The notes beneath the pieces are model-generated. The model worked only from the letters and a program-made list of their open reading frames with translations. It did no database searches and was not told the origin of the DNA. A DNA stretch of 38,866 nucleotides from Rhodospirillaceae bacterium (GTDB lineage Bacteria; Pseudomonadota; Alphaproteobacteria; GCA-2731375): the NCBI GenBank assembly GCA_018667855.1, contig JABIRL010000069.1, positions 1-38,866 on the forward strand, read 5' to 3'. Shown piece by piece: positions 1,788 to 8,078 of the stretch (within the stretch, counting starts at the first letter, position 1; each line of letters begins with the position of its first letter). The position numbers were made by a program, and so were the translations under genes.

Positions 1788-3236
1788 ATGACGACAACAC
1801 ATTTCAAGGACGTTGATTGGATTGTTGCCTGGGACCAGGACCGCCAGAGCCATTGCTATCTGAAGGGCGGCGATCTGGCTTTCGCAGGCAATGAAATTAC
1901 CTTCGTCGGCCCGGATTATGACGGCCAGAGCGACAATGTGGTCGATGGTGCCGGGATCTGCCTGATACCGGGCCTGGTCAATATCCATTCGCACCCCTGT
2001 ACCGAGGTGCTGTATCGCGGCATCCGCGAGGATCACAGTGTGCGCGAACACCACATGACCGGCCTGTACGAGCGTTCCTGTTCCTATGCGGCCGACAATG
2101 ACGACAAGAAATTCGGCGCCGAGGTTTCCTACGCGGATTTGATGTTGTCGGGCGTCACCACCTTGGTCGACGTAACCTTCCCCTATCCCGGCTGGGTGGA
2201 GGTGATGGAGAAAAGCGGCCTGCGCATGTACGCCGCACCCGGCTTCAATTCGGCGCAATGGCAGCGGCATAATCACCATGAATTGCATTTCGCAGAGGAT
2301 CTCGCCAAAGGACGCGCCGATTTCGAAGCTTCCCTGGAATTTATCGACGCCTTGGGCGCGCATCCCTCGGACCGGCTGTCGGGTATCGTTTCGCCGTTTC
2401 AGATCGAGAACAACACACCGGAATTACTGACGGAAAGCTACGCCGCCGCCCAGGACCGCGGCATACCGTGGACCACCCATGCCGCCCAGGCGGTGATCGA
2501 ATTCAACATCATGGTCCAGCGCCACGGCATCACGCCGATCCAGTTCCTGGCGGAGCTGGGTGTTCTGGGCCCCGGCACGATCATCGCCCATGCCATATTC
2601 ATTGACGAGAGCTCCTGGATCCAATGGCATTCCAAGACCGATCTGAAATTGTTGGGAGATAGCCACACGGCGGTGGCCCATTGTCCCACGCCCTTCATGC
2701 GCTATGGCGCCATCATGGAGGACTTCGGCCGTTACAAGGACGCCGGCGTGGTCCTGGGCATCGGCACCGATACCATTCCCCATAACCTTATCGAGGACAT
2801 GCGGTCGGCGGCGGTGCTGGCCCGCATCGCCAGCAAGGATGGGCAGGTTGCCACCACCTCCGATGTCTTCCACGCCGCCACCATCGGCGGCGCATCGGCC
2901 CTGATGCGAGACGATATCGGCAGACTGGCGGTCGGCGCCAAGGCGGATATGGTGGCCCTCGACCTCAATAATCCAATCATGATGCCGGTGCGCGATCCCA
3001 TTGTCAGCCTGATCCACCACGCCGCCGAACGGGCGGTGAAAGACGTCTATATCGATGGCCGGCAGGTGATCCGTGATCATCAGGTTTTGACCCTTGACCG
3101 TCCCGGCGCCGCGGCCCGGCTGGCCGATGCCCAGGCCCGCATGGAGGCCGGCGTGCCGGAGCGGGATTTTCTGGGTCGTTCGAGTCAGGAGATCGCGCCG
3201 CTAAGCCTGCCCATGGCGTTTCCCTCCAACGAATAA
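1788..3236 (+). CDS. Metal-dependent amidohydrolase/deaminase (ATZ/TRZ-like)
   Basis: Cytosolic hydrolase of the amidohydrolase superfamily, 482 aa. It has the TIM-barrel metal ligands in order: HxH at His67/His69 (NIHSHP), His231 (TTHAAQ), His268 (IIAHAIF) and Asp328 (GIGTDTIPHN). The flanking beta-sandwich segments appear at the N-terminus (ICLIPGLVN) and C-terminus (GRLAVGAKADMVALDL). This layout is that of the S-adenosylhomocysteine/methylthioadenosine deaminase, guanine deaminase and atrazine chlorohydrolase group, which removes amino or halide groups from heterocycles or ureides. The substrate is unknown. The frame is open further upstream, but the ATG at 1788 has the good ribosome-binding site GGGGGAGGA and is where family similarity starts. 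It diverges from a class V PLP enzyme, which suggests a nitrogen-compound breakdown pair. Confidence 0.88.
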   Translation: MTTTHFKDVDWIVAWDQDRQSHCYLKGGDLAFAGNEITFVGPDYDGQSDNVVDGAGICLIPGLVNIHSHPCTEVLYRGIREDHSVREHHMTGLYERSCSYAADNDDKKFGAEVSYADLMLSGVTTLVDVTFPYPGWVEVMEKSGLRMYAAPGFNSAQWQRHNHHELHFAEDLAKGRADFEASLEFIDALGAHPSDRLSGIVSPFQIENNTPELLTESYAAAQDRGIPWTTHAAQAVIEFNIMVQRHGITPIQFLAELGVLGPGTIIAHAIFIDESSWIQWHSKTDLKLLGDSHTAVAHCPTPFMRYGAIMEDFGRYKDAGVVLGIGTDTIPHNLIEDMRSAAVLARIASKDGQVATTSDVFHAATIGGASALMRDDIGRLAVGAKADMVALDLNNPIMMPVRDPIVSLIHHAAERAVKDVYIDGRQVIRDHQVLTLDRPGAAARLADAQARMEAGVPERDFLGRSSQEIAPLSLPMAFPSNE

Positions 3237-3246
3237 ATCTCTTCGC

Positions 3247-3275
3247 GTGACAAACCCGGCAAAGCGGCCTATATC
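3247..3275 (+). promoter_or_regulatory. Predicted sigma70-type promoter for the aromatic leader/DAHP synthase transcript
   Basis: A -35-like GTGACA (3247-3252; five of six matches to TTGACA) and a -10-like TATATC (3270-3275) are separated by exactly 17 bp. Transcription would be expected to begin about 7 bases downstream, near 3282-3283, which is the A of the leader-peptide ATG. The boxes are read by eye; the start site is inferred. Confidence 0.5.
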
Positions 3276-3282
3276 ATCCGCC

Positions 3283-3363
3283 ATGAACCACATGAGCGCA
3301 TATTATTTTTGGTATTTTGCGTATCCGATGCCGCTGGCGGAGGACGGGGTTCGTTTGGTTTAA
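3283..3363 (+). CDS. Aromatic leader peptide (26 aa) of a DAHP synthase attenuator
   Basis: A short ORF, ATG at 3283 to TAA at 3361-3363, encodes a 26-residue peptide whose residues 7-14 read YYFWYFAY: four Tyr, two Phe and one Trp. These are all three end products of the pathway whose first enzyme, DAHP synthase, lies immediately downstream. Such end-product-rich peptides are the sensing element of ribosome-mediated attenuators (trpL, pheL and hisL precedents). No Shine-Dalgarno sequence precedes the ATG, but the predicted promoter would start the RNA at or within a base of the ATG, so the leader may be translated as a leaderless message, as reported for Sinorhizobium trpL. A second in-frame ATG at 3292 is an alternative start. 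The aromatic run and stop are direct observations; the function is inferred from position. Confidence 0.8.
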   Translation: MNHMSAYYFWYFAYPMPLAEDGVRLV

Positions 3364-3388
3364 AGACAAGATCAAAACAAATTCTCGG

Positions 3389-3416
3389 AACCGCCAGGCA
3401 GCTGGCGGTTTTTTTT
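3389..3416 (+). terminator. Attenuator terminator upstream of DAHP synthase, with alternative antiterminator pairing
   Basis: A 9-bp perfect stem, AACCGCCAG (3389-3397) with CTGGCGGTT (3402-3410) around a GCAG loop, runs into an eight-T tract (3409-3416), a textbook intrinsic terminator 40 bp before the DAHP synthase ATG. The sequence GCTGGCGG of the 3' arm (3401-3408) is repeated exactly inside the leader ORF (3333-3340), so CTGGCGG at 3334-3340 can pair with CCGCCAG (3391-3397) and stop the terminator forming. GGTTC (3348-3352) can also pair with GAACC at 3388-3392, or with GAACC at 3285-3289 at the start of the leader. A ribosome stalled on the aromatic codons (3301-3324) would leave 3334-3352 free for antitermination. 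One reaching the stop codon at 3361 would cover about 3348-3376 and favour termination. Confidence 0.85.
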
Positions 3417-3456: not shown

Positions 3457-4527
3457 ATGCTGGACACCACGGACGACATACGCATTCGCGAAATCACCGC
3501 TCTTGATACCCCGGCGGAGATTATTCACAGCCACCCCCGTACGAAAGCTGCGACAGACACGGTCATCGCCGCCCGTCTGGCCTTGCAACGCATCGTGCAT
3601 CGCAACGACGGCCGCCTGGCGGTGATTATCGGCCCCTGTTCCATACATGATCCGGAAGCGGCGATGGATTACGCCAACCGCCTAGTGGATATGCGCGCCA
3701 GACTTGGTGACCGGCTGGAGATCATCATGCGGGTTTACTTCGAAAAGCCGCGCACTACGGTGGGCTGGAAAGGCTTGATCAACGATCCGGATCTCGATGG
3801 CAGTTTCGATGTGGAGCGGGGCCTGCGCATCGCCCGGCGTCTGTTGCTGGATATCAATAATCTGGGCGTTCCGGCGGGGTGCGAATTCCTCGATACCATG
3901 ATGCCGCAATACATCGCCGATCTGGTCTCCTGGGCCGCCATTGGTGCGCGCACCACGGAAAGCCAGATCCATCGCGAGATGGCTTCCGGCCTGTCCTGCC
4001 CCGTGGGCTTCAAGAACGGCACCGACGGTAATGTGAAAATCGCCGTTGATGCGGTTGCCTCCGCCGCCGCGCCGCATCACTTCCTGGCCGTGACAAAGGA
4101 TGGCCGGGCGGCCATCGCTAACACAGCTGGCAACAGCGATTGCCATATCATCCTGCGCGGCGGTAAGGCGCCGAATTTCGATGCCGACAGTATTAATGCG
4201 GCCTGCGATGTGTTGCATCAGTCGGGTTTGATGCCCAGCGTCATGATCGATGCCAGCCACGCCAACAGCGCCAAGAAGCCGGAAAACCAATCCCTCGTCA
4301 TGGCTGATGTGGGCGCCCAGATCGCCGCCGGGGATGAGCGTATCGTCGGCGTCATGATCGAAAGCAATCTGGTTGCCGGACGCCAGGATCTGCTGCCCGG
4401 TCAGGCATTGACCTATGGCCAAAGCATCACGGATGGCTGCATTGATTGGGATACTTCAGTGGCGGTCCTGGAAGAACTGGCGACGGCCGTGACACGGCGT
4501 CGGCGGGCGGCTGCCGCCGCCGGTTAG
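3457..4527 (+). CDS. 3-deoxy-7-phosphoheptulonate (DAHP) synthase, class I
   Basis: Catalyses condensation of phosphoenolpyruvate with erythrose 4-phosphate, the first committed step of the shikimate/aromatic amino acid pathway, in the cytosol. The 356-aa length fits the E. coli AroF/AroG/AroH type. Family motifs are visible: GPCSIHDPEAA with metal-ligand Cys61, the substrate loop KPRTTVGWKGLINDP, GCEFLDTMMPQYI, ARTTESQIHREMASG, GFKNGTDG, HIILRGGK, DASHANSAKKP and the C-terminal GQSITDGCIDW. The start has a GGGAGA ribosome-binding sequence. It follows directly after the aromatic leader and terminator at 3283-3416, so expression is probably set by attenuation. Which of the E. coli paralogues it corresponds to for feedback inhibition cannot be decided from sequence, so no symbol is given. 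Confidence 0.95.
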   Translation: MLDTTDDIRIREITALDTPAEIIHSHPRTKAATDTVIAARLALQRIVHRNDGRLAVIIGPCSIHDPEAAMDYANRLVDMRARLGDRLEIIMRVYFEKPRTTVGWKGLINDPDLDGSFDVERGLRIARRLLLDINNLGVPAGCEFLDTMMPQYIADLVSWAAIGARTTESQIHREMASGLSCPVGFKNGTDGNVKIAVDAVASAAAPHHFLAVTKDGRAAIANTAGNSDCHIILRGGKAPNFDADSINAACDVLHQSGLMPSVMIDASHANSAKKPENQSLVMADVGAQIAAGDERIVGVMIESNLVAGRQDLLPGQALTYGQSITDGCIDWDTSVAVLEELATAVTRRRRAAAAAG

Positions 4528-6491: not shown

Positions 6492-8078
6492 TCAGGCGAA
6501 ATCAGTTGGATGTGGTGAAGATTCCTGATTTTCAATCATCGCCAGAACCATATCGCCCAGCAGCTTGCCCTTGATCTCGGCATGGCCTGGCTCATCCCAA
6601 AGGTTTTGCATCTCATTGGGATCGTTTTGCAGATCGTAAAGCTCCCCGAATTCCGAACCCATGTAACGTGACAGACGCCAGCGCTGGGTCAGATAGGTCC
6701 GCGCCTTGATCGGGCCGTCAAAGTGGAAGTTGGGGCGTTGGGCGTCCTGTTCCACCATCATGCCGTCGCGCAACCCATCGACTTCACCGCGCATCAGGGG
6801 ACCCAGGTCGTGGCCCTGCATGCCGTTGAAGGGCGCCAGCCCGGCCCGGGCCAGCACCGTACGGGCGATATCGATGGTTCCCGCCAAGCCATCTTGGCGG
6901 ACGCCGTTCAAGCCGTCGCCCGGGTCGGACCAGATGAACGGCACCTTGACCAGACCTTGATAGTGCAAGGGGCCTTTCAGCATGATGCCATGATCGCCCA
7001 TGAAATCGCCGTGATCGGAGGTAAACAGAATGACTGTGTCCTGTTCCAGACCAAGCGCTTCCAGTTTCGCCATGACCCGCCCCACGCAATCATCGATCAT
7101 GGCGATCATGCCGTAGGTCAGGGCTATAATTTCCTTGGTTTCCCGCTCGCTGGCGGCGAAAGGTTGGATCGTATTGCGGTCCACGTCACCCGCGGCGGTG
7201 CGGGCCTGGATATAGGCCGTTGTGGGTTGCGGGCTGGAATTGTGGTAGCTGGCGGGCAGTTCCATTGCATCCGGATCATACATGCGAAAATACTTGCCCG
7301 GCGGGTTATAGGGGTGATGCGGATCCGGGAAGGAACATTGCAGAAAAAACGGCTTGTGGGGGTCCTGCGCCTCCAAAAACGCTTCGCTGCGGTCGGCGAC
7401 GTAGCTGGATGTGTAATGTTCTTCCGGAATAGCGGTATGCCAGGATTGCGGCGCTGAATAGTCCGGCTCTGGAATGGCATTGTCGGGTCCGCGCAAACCA
7501 TCGGCATCGCTGTGCCGCTCTTTTAGCCACAGATCGTAATGGCCGCGCACCCGGTCGCCATGAAGGGTGCATAATTCCACGTGATCGAAACCGTAGAAGG
7601 GCGTGGCGAGATCCAGATAACCCCGGCGTCCGTCCGCCGGCATCTTCTCGTCTTCGTATTCCGAGCCACTAATGGTGCCGCGGCGGGCCTCGGACAGATC
7701 CGCGGGTGGCGCGTCGCCGTCGCCGCTGACTGCTGATACGGCGGCCGGCATATTGGTGAAATTCTGCAAATGTGATTTGCCCACAAGGCCCGTGCTGTAG
7801 CCGCCCGCGCGCAGCAGATCGACGAACGTCACGGCGTCGCGGCGAAGTGGTACGCCGTTGTACCGCACGCCATGGAGTGACGGCATGCGCCCCGTAACCA
7901 GAGTGGAGCGGTTGGGCATGCAGACGGCGGAGGCCACGTTGAAACGATCGAACCCGACGCCGCGCGCAGCAATGGCGTCAATGTTCGGGGTTTTGAGTAT
8001 TTCGTTGCCGTTGCAGCCCAAGTGATCCCAGCGCTGTTGGTCAGTCATGAACAAAATGAAATTCGGTTGCTTTGCCAT
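6492..8078 (-). CDS. Type I (Cys-type) sulfatase
   Basis: Arylsulfatase/alkaline phosphatase superfamily hydrolase, 528 aa, which cleaves sulfate esters (some homologues act on phosphonates or phosphates). The activation motif C-x-P-x-R is present as CMPNRSTLVTGR with Cys53. This Cys would be converted to formylglycine by a separate formylglycine-generating or anaerobic maturase enzyme, not seen in this window. Other signature pieces are the metal-binding ILFMTDQQRWDHLG, the lysine in GLVGKSHL and the late metal site FTSDHGDFMGDHG. No signal peptide is visible, since the protein starts MAKQPNFILFMTDQQ, so it is probably cytosolic and works on an imported substrate, perhaps one carried by the MFS protein next door. 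It diverges from the MmgE/PrpD gene across 61 bp. Confidence 0.92.
   Translation of the reverse strand: MAKQPNFILFMTDQQRWDHLGCNGNEILKTPNIDAIAARGVGFDRFNVASAVCMPNRSTLVTGRMPSLHGVRYNGVPLRRDAVTFVDLLRAGGYSTGLVGKSHLQNFTNMPAAVSAVSGDGDAPPADLSEARRGTISGSEYEDEKMPADGRRGYLDLATPFYGFDHVELCTLHGDRVRGHYDLWLKERHSDADGLRGPDNAIPEPDYSAPQSWHTAIPEEHYTSSYVADRSEAFLEAQDPHKPFFLQCSFPDPHHPYNPPGKYFRMYDPDAMELPASYHNSSPQPTTAYIQARTAAGDVDRNTIQPFAASERETKEIIALTYGMIAMIDDCVGRVMAKLEALGLEQDTVILFTSDHGDFMGDHGIMLKGPLHYQGLVKVPFIWSDPGDGLNGVRQDGLAGTIDIARTVLARAGLAPFNGMQGHDLGPLMRGEVDGLRDGMMVEQDAQRPNFHFDGPIKARTYLTQRWRLSRYMGSEFGELYDLQNDPNEMQNLWDEPGHAEIKGKLLGDMVLAMIENQESSPHPTDFA

Follow-up and report, generated by a model that had tools for sequence, protein, structure and literature searches.

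The gene of a class I DAHP synthase in a Rhodospirillaceae genome, and its counterparts in many other Proteobacteria, are very probably controlled by ribosome-mediated transcription attenuation, in which ribosomes stall on the aromatic codons of a short leader ORF. The window, which is the whole stretch of DNA that we analysed (38,866 nucleotides, contig JABIRL010000069.1), contains an amidohydrolase gene (PF01979) that ends at 3236, and the 220 bases between this upstream neighbour and the DAHP synthase hold a promoter-like pair, a 26-codon ORF and a terminator. Attenuation had been proposed here by an initial annotation made from the sequence, and it is strongly supported by conservation, by geometry and by competing pairing. 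We observe the conservation of the element, the geometry of its parts, mutually exclusive pairings and an extra complementarity within loci. The parts of the element in the window are the following.

3247 to 3252, plus strand: putative -35 element GTGACA, from the sequence; the TGACA position is common in alphaproteobacterial leaders
3270 to 3275, plus strand: putative -10 element TATATC after a 17-nt spacer, from the sequence and from upstream regions compared by eye
3283 to 3363, plus strand: leader ORF of 26 codons and TAA, MNHMSAYYFWYFAYPMPLAEDGVRLV, from the sequence
3301 to 3324, plus strand: presumed stall codons TAT TAT TTT TGG TAT TTT GCG TAT, 7 of 8 aromatic, from the sequence
3335 to 3340, plus strand: antiterminator base, 5' strand TGGCGG, predicted by folding and complementarity to pair with 3391-3396
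3345 to 3349, plus strand: antiterminator middle helix, 5' strand CGGGG, predicted by folding to pair with 3383-3387
3354 to 3361, plus strand: antiterminator apical helix, 5' strand TTTGGTTT, predicted by folding to pair with 3369-3376
3361 to 3363, plus strand: leader stop codon TAA (sequence), at the predicted antiterminator tip (folding)
3369 to 3376, plus strand: antiterminator apical helix, 3' strand AGATCAAA, from folding
3383 to 3387, plus strand: antiterminator middle helix, 3' strand TCTCG, from folding
3387 to 3412, plus strand: intrinsic terminator hairpin, 11 pairs and a loop of 4, its 5' arm shared with the antiterminator, from a terminator scan and folding
3409 to 3416, plus strand: U tract of the terminator, from the sequence
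3457 to 4527, plus strand: DAHP synthase, class I (AroF/G/H type), PF00793 7e-92 and TIGR00034 1.5e-157

Reading out the sequence confirmed every coordinate first given for the ORF, the terminator and an 8-nt copy of a terminator arm; the copied word, GCTGGCGG, is present twice, at 3333-3340 and at 3401-3408. The matches to PF00793 and TIGR00034 likewise bear out the naming of the downstream gene as a DAHP synthase, and the expectation that so short a leader would go unannotated agrees with one annotated record, the gene table of which is incomplete. Farther along the window, a sulfatase gene (PF00884, 1.2e-41) occupies 6492-8078 on the minus strand.

An aromatic leader ORF followed by a terminator precedes the DAHP synthase in all 91 gene-chosen loci, the window included, and the aromatic codons that had been predicted to persist in relatives are conserved in each of them. 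These loci comprise the best 80 from a scan of genome contigs together with loci from genomes of the window's genus and class; because they are the best matches to the gene, the count of 91 in 91 describes that clade and not all DAHP synthases. A regular expression found 89 of the 91 terminators, and the other two, in L073 and L074, are spelled differently and visible in the output; these two loci are omitted from all other counts. Two loci with a contig edge ahead of the leader (L011 and L086) were left out, one identical leader (L024) was dropped, and the leader of genome G006 was recovered as L198. Loss of the leader was suspected in six close relatives (L085, L089 and L091-L094), but their loci are read from the minus strand, and the leader is present in every one of them. 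Another 16 loci were chosen through matches to our model and therefore lend no independent support. The resulting set has 104 distinct leaders, 88 gene-chosen and 16 model-chosen, of which 96 contain a GGCGG copy of the terminator-arm sequence; L184 was admitted by hand below the aromatic threshold, and the ATG of L001 was set by hand at 3283.

The specificity of this arrangement is evident when all short ORFs are considered. Both strands of L001-L094 and the window (1,268,486 bases) contain 6534 short ATG ORFs, and 88 of these have at least six aromatic residues in ten. Every one of the 88 lies at the leader position of a DAHP synthase and is followed by a terminator no more than 85 nt away, and the flanking DNA of the same loci has no other aromatic-rich ORF of this kind. 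The 88 derive from 73 sources, with nested starts counted apart; the two window entries are the leader at 3283-3363, and L001 overlaps the window. The combination of leader, terminator and copy is not due to chance.

The position of the aromatic codons relative to the copy is also constrained. In the 96 leaders with GGCGG, the start of an aromatic codon falls 14-35 nt before this copy in 545 of 641 cases, and since the front edge of the ribosome is taken to lie 14 nt beyond the A site, a ribosome halted on these codons would leave GGCGG about just outside. Among the eight leaders without GGCGG, six of the Devosia type carry GCTGGCAG instead, L190 has TTGGCGCCGG, and L079 has, by eye, CCGGG opposite a matching CCCGG in the terminator arm. 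The copy is read in another frame in 8 of the 96 leaders, indicating that the nucleotides are kept rather than the peptide. At the copy, Ala is encoded by GCG in 89 of 91 cases, as against 1572 of 4448 in the genes.

The terminator at 3387-3412 is the sole site that a terminator scan of the region returned; as 1.3 terminator-like sites are expected per shuffled region, it is not significant by count alone. Its stretch (3374-3416) folds at -18.2 kcal/mol with a z of -3.98, and among the loci two of its pairs are changed on both sides in 13 cells, a number that none of 500 shuffles reaches. The antiterminator hairpin of the window (3330-3399) folds at -24.9 kcal/mol (z -2.70). The pairing of 3333-3340 with 3391-3397 that had been put forward is, in this fold, only the base of a longer predicted antiterminator reaching 3361/3369. 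No pair of the base helix is changed on both sides and its covariation score is below that of shuffles, because the GGCGG/CCGCC core is nearly invariant, and RNAalifold on the whole element returns the terminator only and no antiterminator. The compensatory changes anticipated for the stems of relatives thus appear in the terminator but not in the base helix, and in a single pair of the apical helix. Complementarity within loci was measured by a swap test on 31 thinned loci, in which each locus's own leader-spacer pairs sum to -673.9 kcal/mol, while permuted pairs give -620.0 (sd 15.1); a sum as good arises in 4 of 20000 permutations, and in 562 of 20000 when the invariant core is masked. Folding and complementarity, with little covariation, suggest an antiterminator that excludes the terminator and that would be free to form under a stalled ribosome.

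Cut transcripts were folded with the ribosome at different places. In these folds the RNA is cut before the 3' arm of the terminator, another motif was used for the eight leaders lacking GGCGG, and there was no shuffled control. In 102 of 104 loci, a ribosome on the aromatic codons leaves the 5' arm of the terminator paired (P above 0.5) with the copy in the leader. A ribosome at the stop codon gives an arm paired with any partner (P above 0.5) in only 3 of 104, a low figure that is partly built in, since the RNA behind this ribosome is omitted by assumption. Without a ribosome, the copy captures the terminator arm in 56 of 104 loci, so that an untranslated leader would often read through; the untranslated leader of E. 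coli trp is not known to do so. When the full-length RNA is folded to equilibrium, the terminator has a median P of 0.99 with a stalled ribosome, 1.00 with a ribosome at the stop codon and 1.00 with no ribosome bound. The terminator therefore wins at equilibrium even under a stalled ribosome, and control must be kinetic.

How would a ribosome that finishes the peptide prevent antitermination? A ribosome at 3361 would not just mask the copy: in the window leader the distance from the copy to the stop codon is 20 nt. Folding points to another explanation. Over 96 loci, 10.1 pairs are expected to enclose the stop codon compared with 5.3 in shuffles, and the energy of the stop-codon segment is modestly below that of shuffles (mean z -0.92, with 12 of 96 above 0). 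RNAalifold, applied separately to three groups (11 of 13 sequences, without L092 and L005; 12 of 12; and 7 of 13), gives each time a base helix, a middle helix and an apical helix of six pairs that flanks or holds the stop codon. The apical helices are UUGAUC/GAUCAA (11 sequences), CUCAAU/AUUG.AG (12) and CUGAAG/CUUCAG (7). One apical pair of the window group is A-U in 6, G-U in 3 and G-C in 2 sequences; no other pair in the three folds shows a change of both partners, which this one shows in 2 of 11 sequences. Each fold has a slightly unfavourable covariation term (+0.21, +0.17 and +0.16). As the apical letters differ between groups and covariation is weak, the support comes from shared shape and not from pair-by-pair covariation, and the hairpin structures were derived from the very sequences on which they are judged. 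With these reservations, we consider it somewhat more probable than the opposite that the antiterminator has the stop codon of the leader at its tip and that a ribosome finishing the peptide blocks this hairpin. A ribosome placed on the nucleation point would explain why antitermination is blocked in spite of the 20 nt that lie between the stop codon and the copy.

The start of the leader RNA may be unusual as well. Of 57 alphaproteobacterial leaders, 43 have a TGACA that starts 34-38 nt 5' of the ATG, including 12 of 13 in the window group, and with this spacing the RNA is expected to begin at the leader ATG. The position of the putative promoter thus predicts a transcription start at about 3282-3283 in the window and a leaderless leader mRNA in the Alphaproteobacteria. 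A generic promoter scan of the window locus returned no promoters and did not pick up the GTGACA/TATATC pair. None of the 47 beta and gamma leaders has TGACA within 60 nt, and most of the best -10-like sites of Burkholderiaceae and Oxalobacteraceae lie farther upstream, which indicates that leaderlessness is not general.

With this in mind, the following model may be put forward, for which we infer the transcription start, the stalling, the kinetics and the response to each amino acid. A promoter just after the upstream gene would start the RNA at the leader ATG or within 1-2 bases of it, and a 70S ribosome would load on this leaderless mRNA. When charged Phe-tRNA, Tyr-tRNA or, in the window, also Trp-tRNA is scarce, the ribosome would halt on an aromatic codon and leave the RNA free from about GGCGG onward. 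The freed RNA could then fold into a long hairpin, with the apical helix around the stop codon, a middle helix of the GGGG/TCTC type and a TGGCGG/CCGCCA base. The CCGCCA of this base is also the 5' arm of the terminator, which would then not form in time, and the DAHP synthase would be transcribed. With ample charged tRNA, the ribosome would get to the stop codon at the hairpin tip and block the hairpin, and the terminator would form.

Other explanations differ mainly in what follows the passage of the ribosome. In a classical four-strand attenuator, the codon region pairs with the spacer once the ribosome has left, and the resulting protector hairpin bars the antiterminator; such a 1:2 hairpin belongs to E. 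coli trp and pheA and is not essential in every attenuator. A helix of this type is part of the Rfam Phe_leader model, to which the window aligns full-length at 32.5 bits (E of 6e-4 and 4e-4), and many codon-spacer pairs occur in some Oxalobacteraceae leaders. However, many pairs of the model helix are marked non-standard in the alignment of the window to Phe_leader, and a 14-kb search of seven other DAHP-synthase leader loci gave no match to this model even at E up to 1. In folds of the 104 leaders, codon-spacer pairs average 1.55 compared with 1.63 for shuffled spacers (0.0 in the window), at least five such pairs occur in 12 of 104, and a leader's own spacer exceeds the shuffled ones in 17 of 104, so that folding lends the protector no support outside some Oxalobacteraceae. 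We therefore regard a protector hairpin as unlikely here. Compatible with attenuation, the terminated leader RNA of ~134 nt might have an added role in trans, as an sRNA or a mini-mRNA. The predicted leaderless start and the precedent of Sinorhizobium rnTrpL, as described in the accessible parts of two papers (PMC7298713, PMC10117765), speak for such a role, which we nonetheless consider improbable, given that the antiterminator already explains much of the conserved sequence.

Control might instead be exerted by the nascent peptide or by translational coupling, through peptide-specific arrest or re-initiation at the DAHP synthase, rather than through tRNA charging and termination. The peptide tail PLAExGxRS is common to many leaders, and a rhizobial leader peptide, peTrpL, can act in trans according to the part of the source available (PMC7298713). 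Nevertheless, the copy is retained in its nucleotides where the frame differs, the predicted apical helix accounts for the last leader codons, a terminator stands ahead of the gene throughout the gene-chosen loci, and 93 nt separate the leader stop codon from the gene start in the window, which makes this very improbable. It is hardly credible that the terminator merely ends upstream transcription and that the ORF is a chance open frame: a lone terminator-like site is indeed expected about once per region, but the ORF, its codons and their spacing are conserved in Alpha- and Gammaproteobacteria (former betas included), and the flanking DNA holds no comparable ORF.

Within the preferred reading, attenuation by stalled ribosomes, the leaders differ in the amino acids that they would sense. 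The initial annotation had Phe, Tyr and Trp sensed together, which fits the window leader but not the family as a whole. Each of the 104 distinct leaders has both Phe and Tyr codons; Trp is in the aromatic cluster of 72 (61 of the 88 gene-chosen leaders) and is missing from that of the other 32. The core signal is therefore Phe and Tyr, with Trp added or lost. Counted by groups, which were assigned partly by likeness, Trp is in the cluster of 7 of 13 leaders of the window group (missing in 6 of 13), 14 of 14 of Devosia, 14 of 14 of Bradyrhizobium and kin, 11 of 16 of other alphas, 13 of 13 of Xanthomonadales and kin, 8 of 9 of Burkholderiaceae, 2 of 2 of other gammas, 3 of 19 of Oxalobacteraceae and 0 of 4 of Alcaligenaceae; leader and spacer of L015 are nearly the same as those of L029 (Inquilinus). 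Loci without Trp codons, such as L019, L025, L034, L080 and most of those in Oxalobacteraceae, are a natural test of sensing. Leader codons are also chosen differently from those of 103 genes: Phe is encoded by TTT in 259 of 331 cases compared with 71 of 627 in the genes, and Tyr by TAT in 168 of 276 compared with 192 of 561. This preference may serve either slower ribosomes or a more open RNA. The leader of L184 (genome G289), MNAARTLSARFYPRSIAGGIRGA, has a single Phe codon and a single Tyr codon left and keeps its terminator and copy; it is possibly a decaying or re-tuned attenuator.

The distribution of the element follows that of the enzyme closely in the Alphaproteobacteria. R1 is a covariance model of the leader element; of the 48 thinned leaders, 29 were used for A1. 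Among 372 alphaproteobacterial genomes, 13 encode an AroF/G/H-type DAHP synthase (E up to 1e-60), and all 13 have a full-length R1 match. Paracoccus pantotrophus (L201) and Devosia riboflavina (L004) are among the species with the element. At E up to 0.01, R1 matched 78 of 385 genomes, of which we used 14, full-length and below 1e-7, a limit set after viewing the list; the weaker matches are mostly partial matches to the terminator, with some full length. The fourteenth full-length match, in G390, also precedes a DAHP synthase (PF00793), and in G006 the leader and the DAHP synthase are at the ends of two contigs. The enzyme is found in 239 of 339 Gammaproteobacteria, former betas included. R1 at E up to 1e-5 matches 8 of 369, which is a lower bound because weak matches are lost under strict filters; seven of the eight adjoin a DAHP synthase. 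The eighth, G463 (L196), was counted as false, as the next gene is recR-like by eye and the ORF is not aromatic.

Enzymes retrieved by protein search show where the association ends. R1 matches all 13 loci of L144-L156 and none of the 25 of L157-L181, whose enzymes rank next in score with 58-64% identity. In a script scan, 12 of the first 13 have a leader with at least five aromatics in ten and L145 has only a two-aromatic one, and none of the 24 placeable loci among the following 25 (all except L177) has an aromatic leader with a terminator, the best being L166 with four aromatics and no terminator. On a tree of 132 enzymes (FastTree, unrooted, support values not considered) the leader state changes once. 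In a sample of Pseudomonadota, 43 of 398 genomes have one full-length R1 match each (E up to 1e-6), 41 before a DAHP synthase and 2 before pheA; some genomes recur between samples under other handles. For 40 of the 43 the locus was fetched, giving 38 with a DAHP-synthase sequence motif downstream and the 2 pheA (PF00800, PF01817). The other three are the window, G371 and G837; the match in G837 equals that in G624 in place and score, and both G371 and G624 precede a DAHP synthase.

Ribosome-mediated attenuation is textbook knowledge, and several known systems resemble the element in part. Rfam RF01859 (Phe_leader), the leader of pheA, shares its layout of an aromatic leader peptide with a terminator. 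The score of the window to RF01859 is below the gathering cut-off of 55 bits, and neither the window nor 20 scanned loci have a Phe_leader, or any other Rfam family on the element, at threshold. Unlike Phe_leader, which has Phe codons and regulates a gene of the Phe branch, the window family has Tyr always and Trp often, and regulates the DAHP synthase. R1 also matches two true Phe_leaders before pheA, L251 (56-183) and L253 (1298-1421, minus strand), with 43.5 and 40.1 bits compared with 79.0 and 73.4 bits to Phe_leader itself; the two types of leader may have a common origin or may be a case of convergence. A ZMP/ZTP riboswitch match (63.2 bits) is present in a Rhodopseudomonas locus (L063:5773-5854, minus strand).

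Among systems known from publications, aroR of Corynebacterium glutamicum is a Phe-Tyr-Phe leader peptide before the DAHP synthase aroF, for which stalling and higher transcription under Phe limitation are reported in the available portions of the sources (PMC11802643, PMC4046766, PMC3890552). It is thus, like the window leader, a Phe/Tyr leader before a DAHP synthase, but it belongs to another phylum and has Phe-Tyr-Phe only, a comparison by published description and not by sequence. The trpL/rnTrpL leader of Sinorhizobium meliloti, as excerpts of two papers describe it (PMC7298713, PMC10117765), is an alphaproteobacterial attenuator with a leaderless leader ORF, as predicted for the window; it is a Trp leader before trpE(G), however, and its start at the ATG is established. 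For Shewanella aroF, also a DAHP-synthase gene thought to be attenuated, the relevant excerpt (PMC2659441) has a predicted attenuator 'sensing tyr-tRNA', a predicted structure with a literature label, and describes no multi-aromatic leader family. A search of the literature with leader-peptide fragments returned no papers. In the literature searched, as far as its accessible text extends, no proteobacterial DAHP-synthase leader family is described, and subscription attenuator papers of 2004-2014 could hold one.

In the genome of the window, the scanned upstream flanks of a trpE(G)-like gene (L199) and of pheA (L200) have no short ORF rich in Trp or in Phe/Tyr, so the DAHP-synthase leader may be the only aromatic attenuator of this genome. 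The genome also encodes a class II DAHP synthase (PF01474, 444 bits) at G000:C8:5-901 (L095), at a contig edge, and a short-ORF scan found no aromatic leader in the stretch before it.

The DAHP-synthase genes of E. coli are controlled by repressor proteins, of which TyrR is one. TrpR is another (PMC11802643). At this entry to the shikimate pathway, the element offers control by RNA only, in 41 of 398 sampled genomes. Taken as a class, these leaders would be two-state attenuators in which the stop codon sits at the antiterminator tip and the finishing ribosome acts as an anti-antiterminator, with no protector hairpin; the alphaproteobacterial peptide would be leaderless and sum two or three amino acids at shikimate entry, and gene and sensor would form one cassette of single origin through much of the Alpha- and Gammaproteobacteria. 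We give this full proposal an even chance. The element suggests a simple way for a stop codon to act as a switch, and it comes in dozens of natural variants, some with Trp codons and some lacking them, on which the sensing of each leader can be tested.
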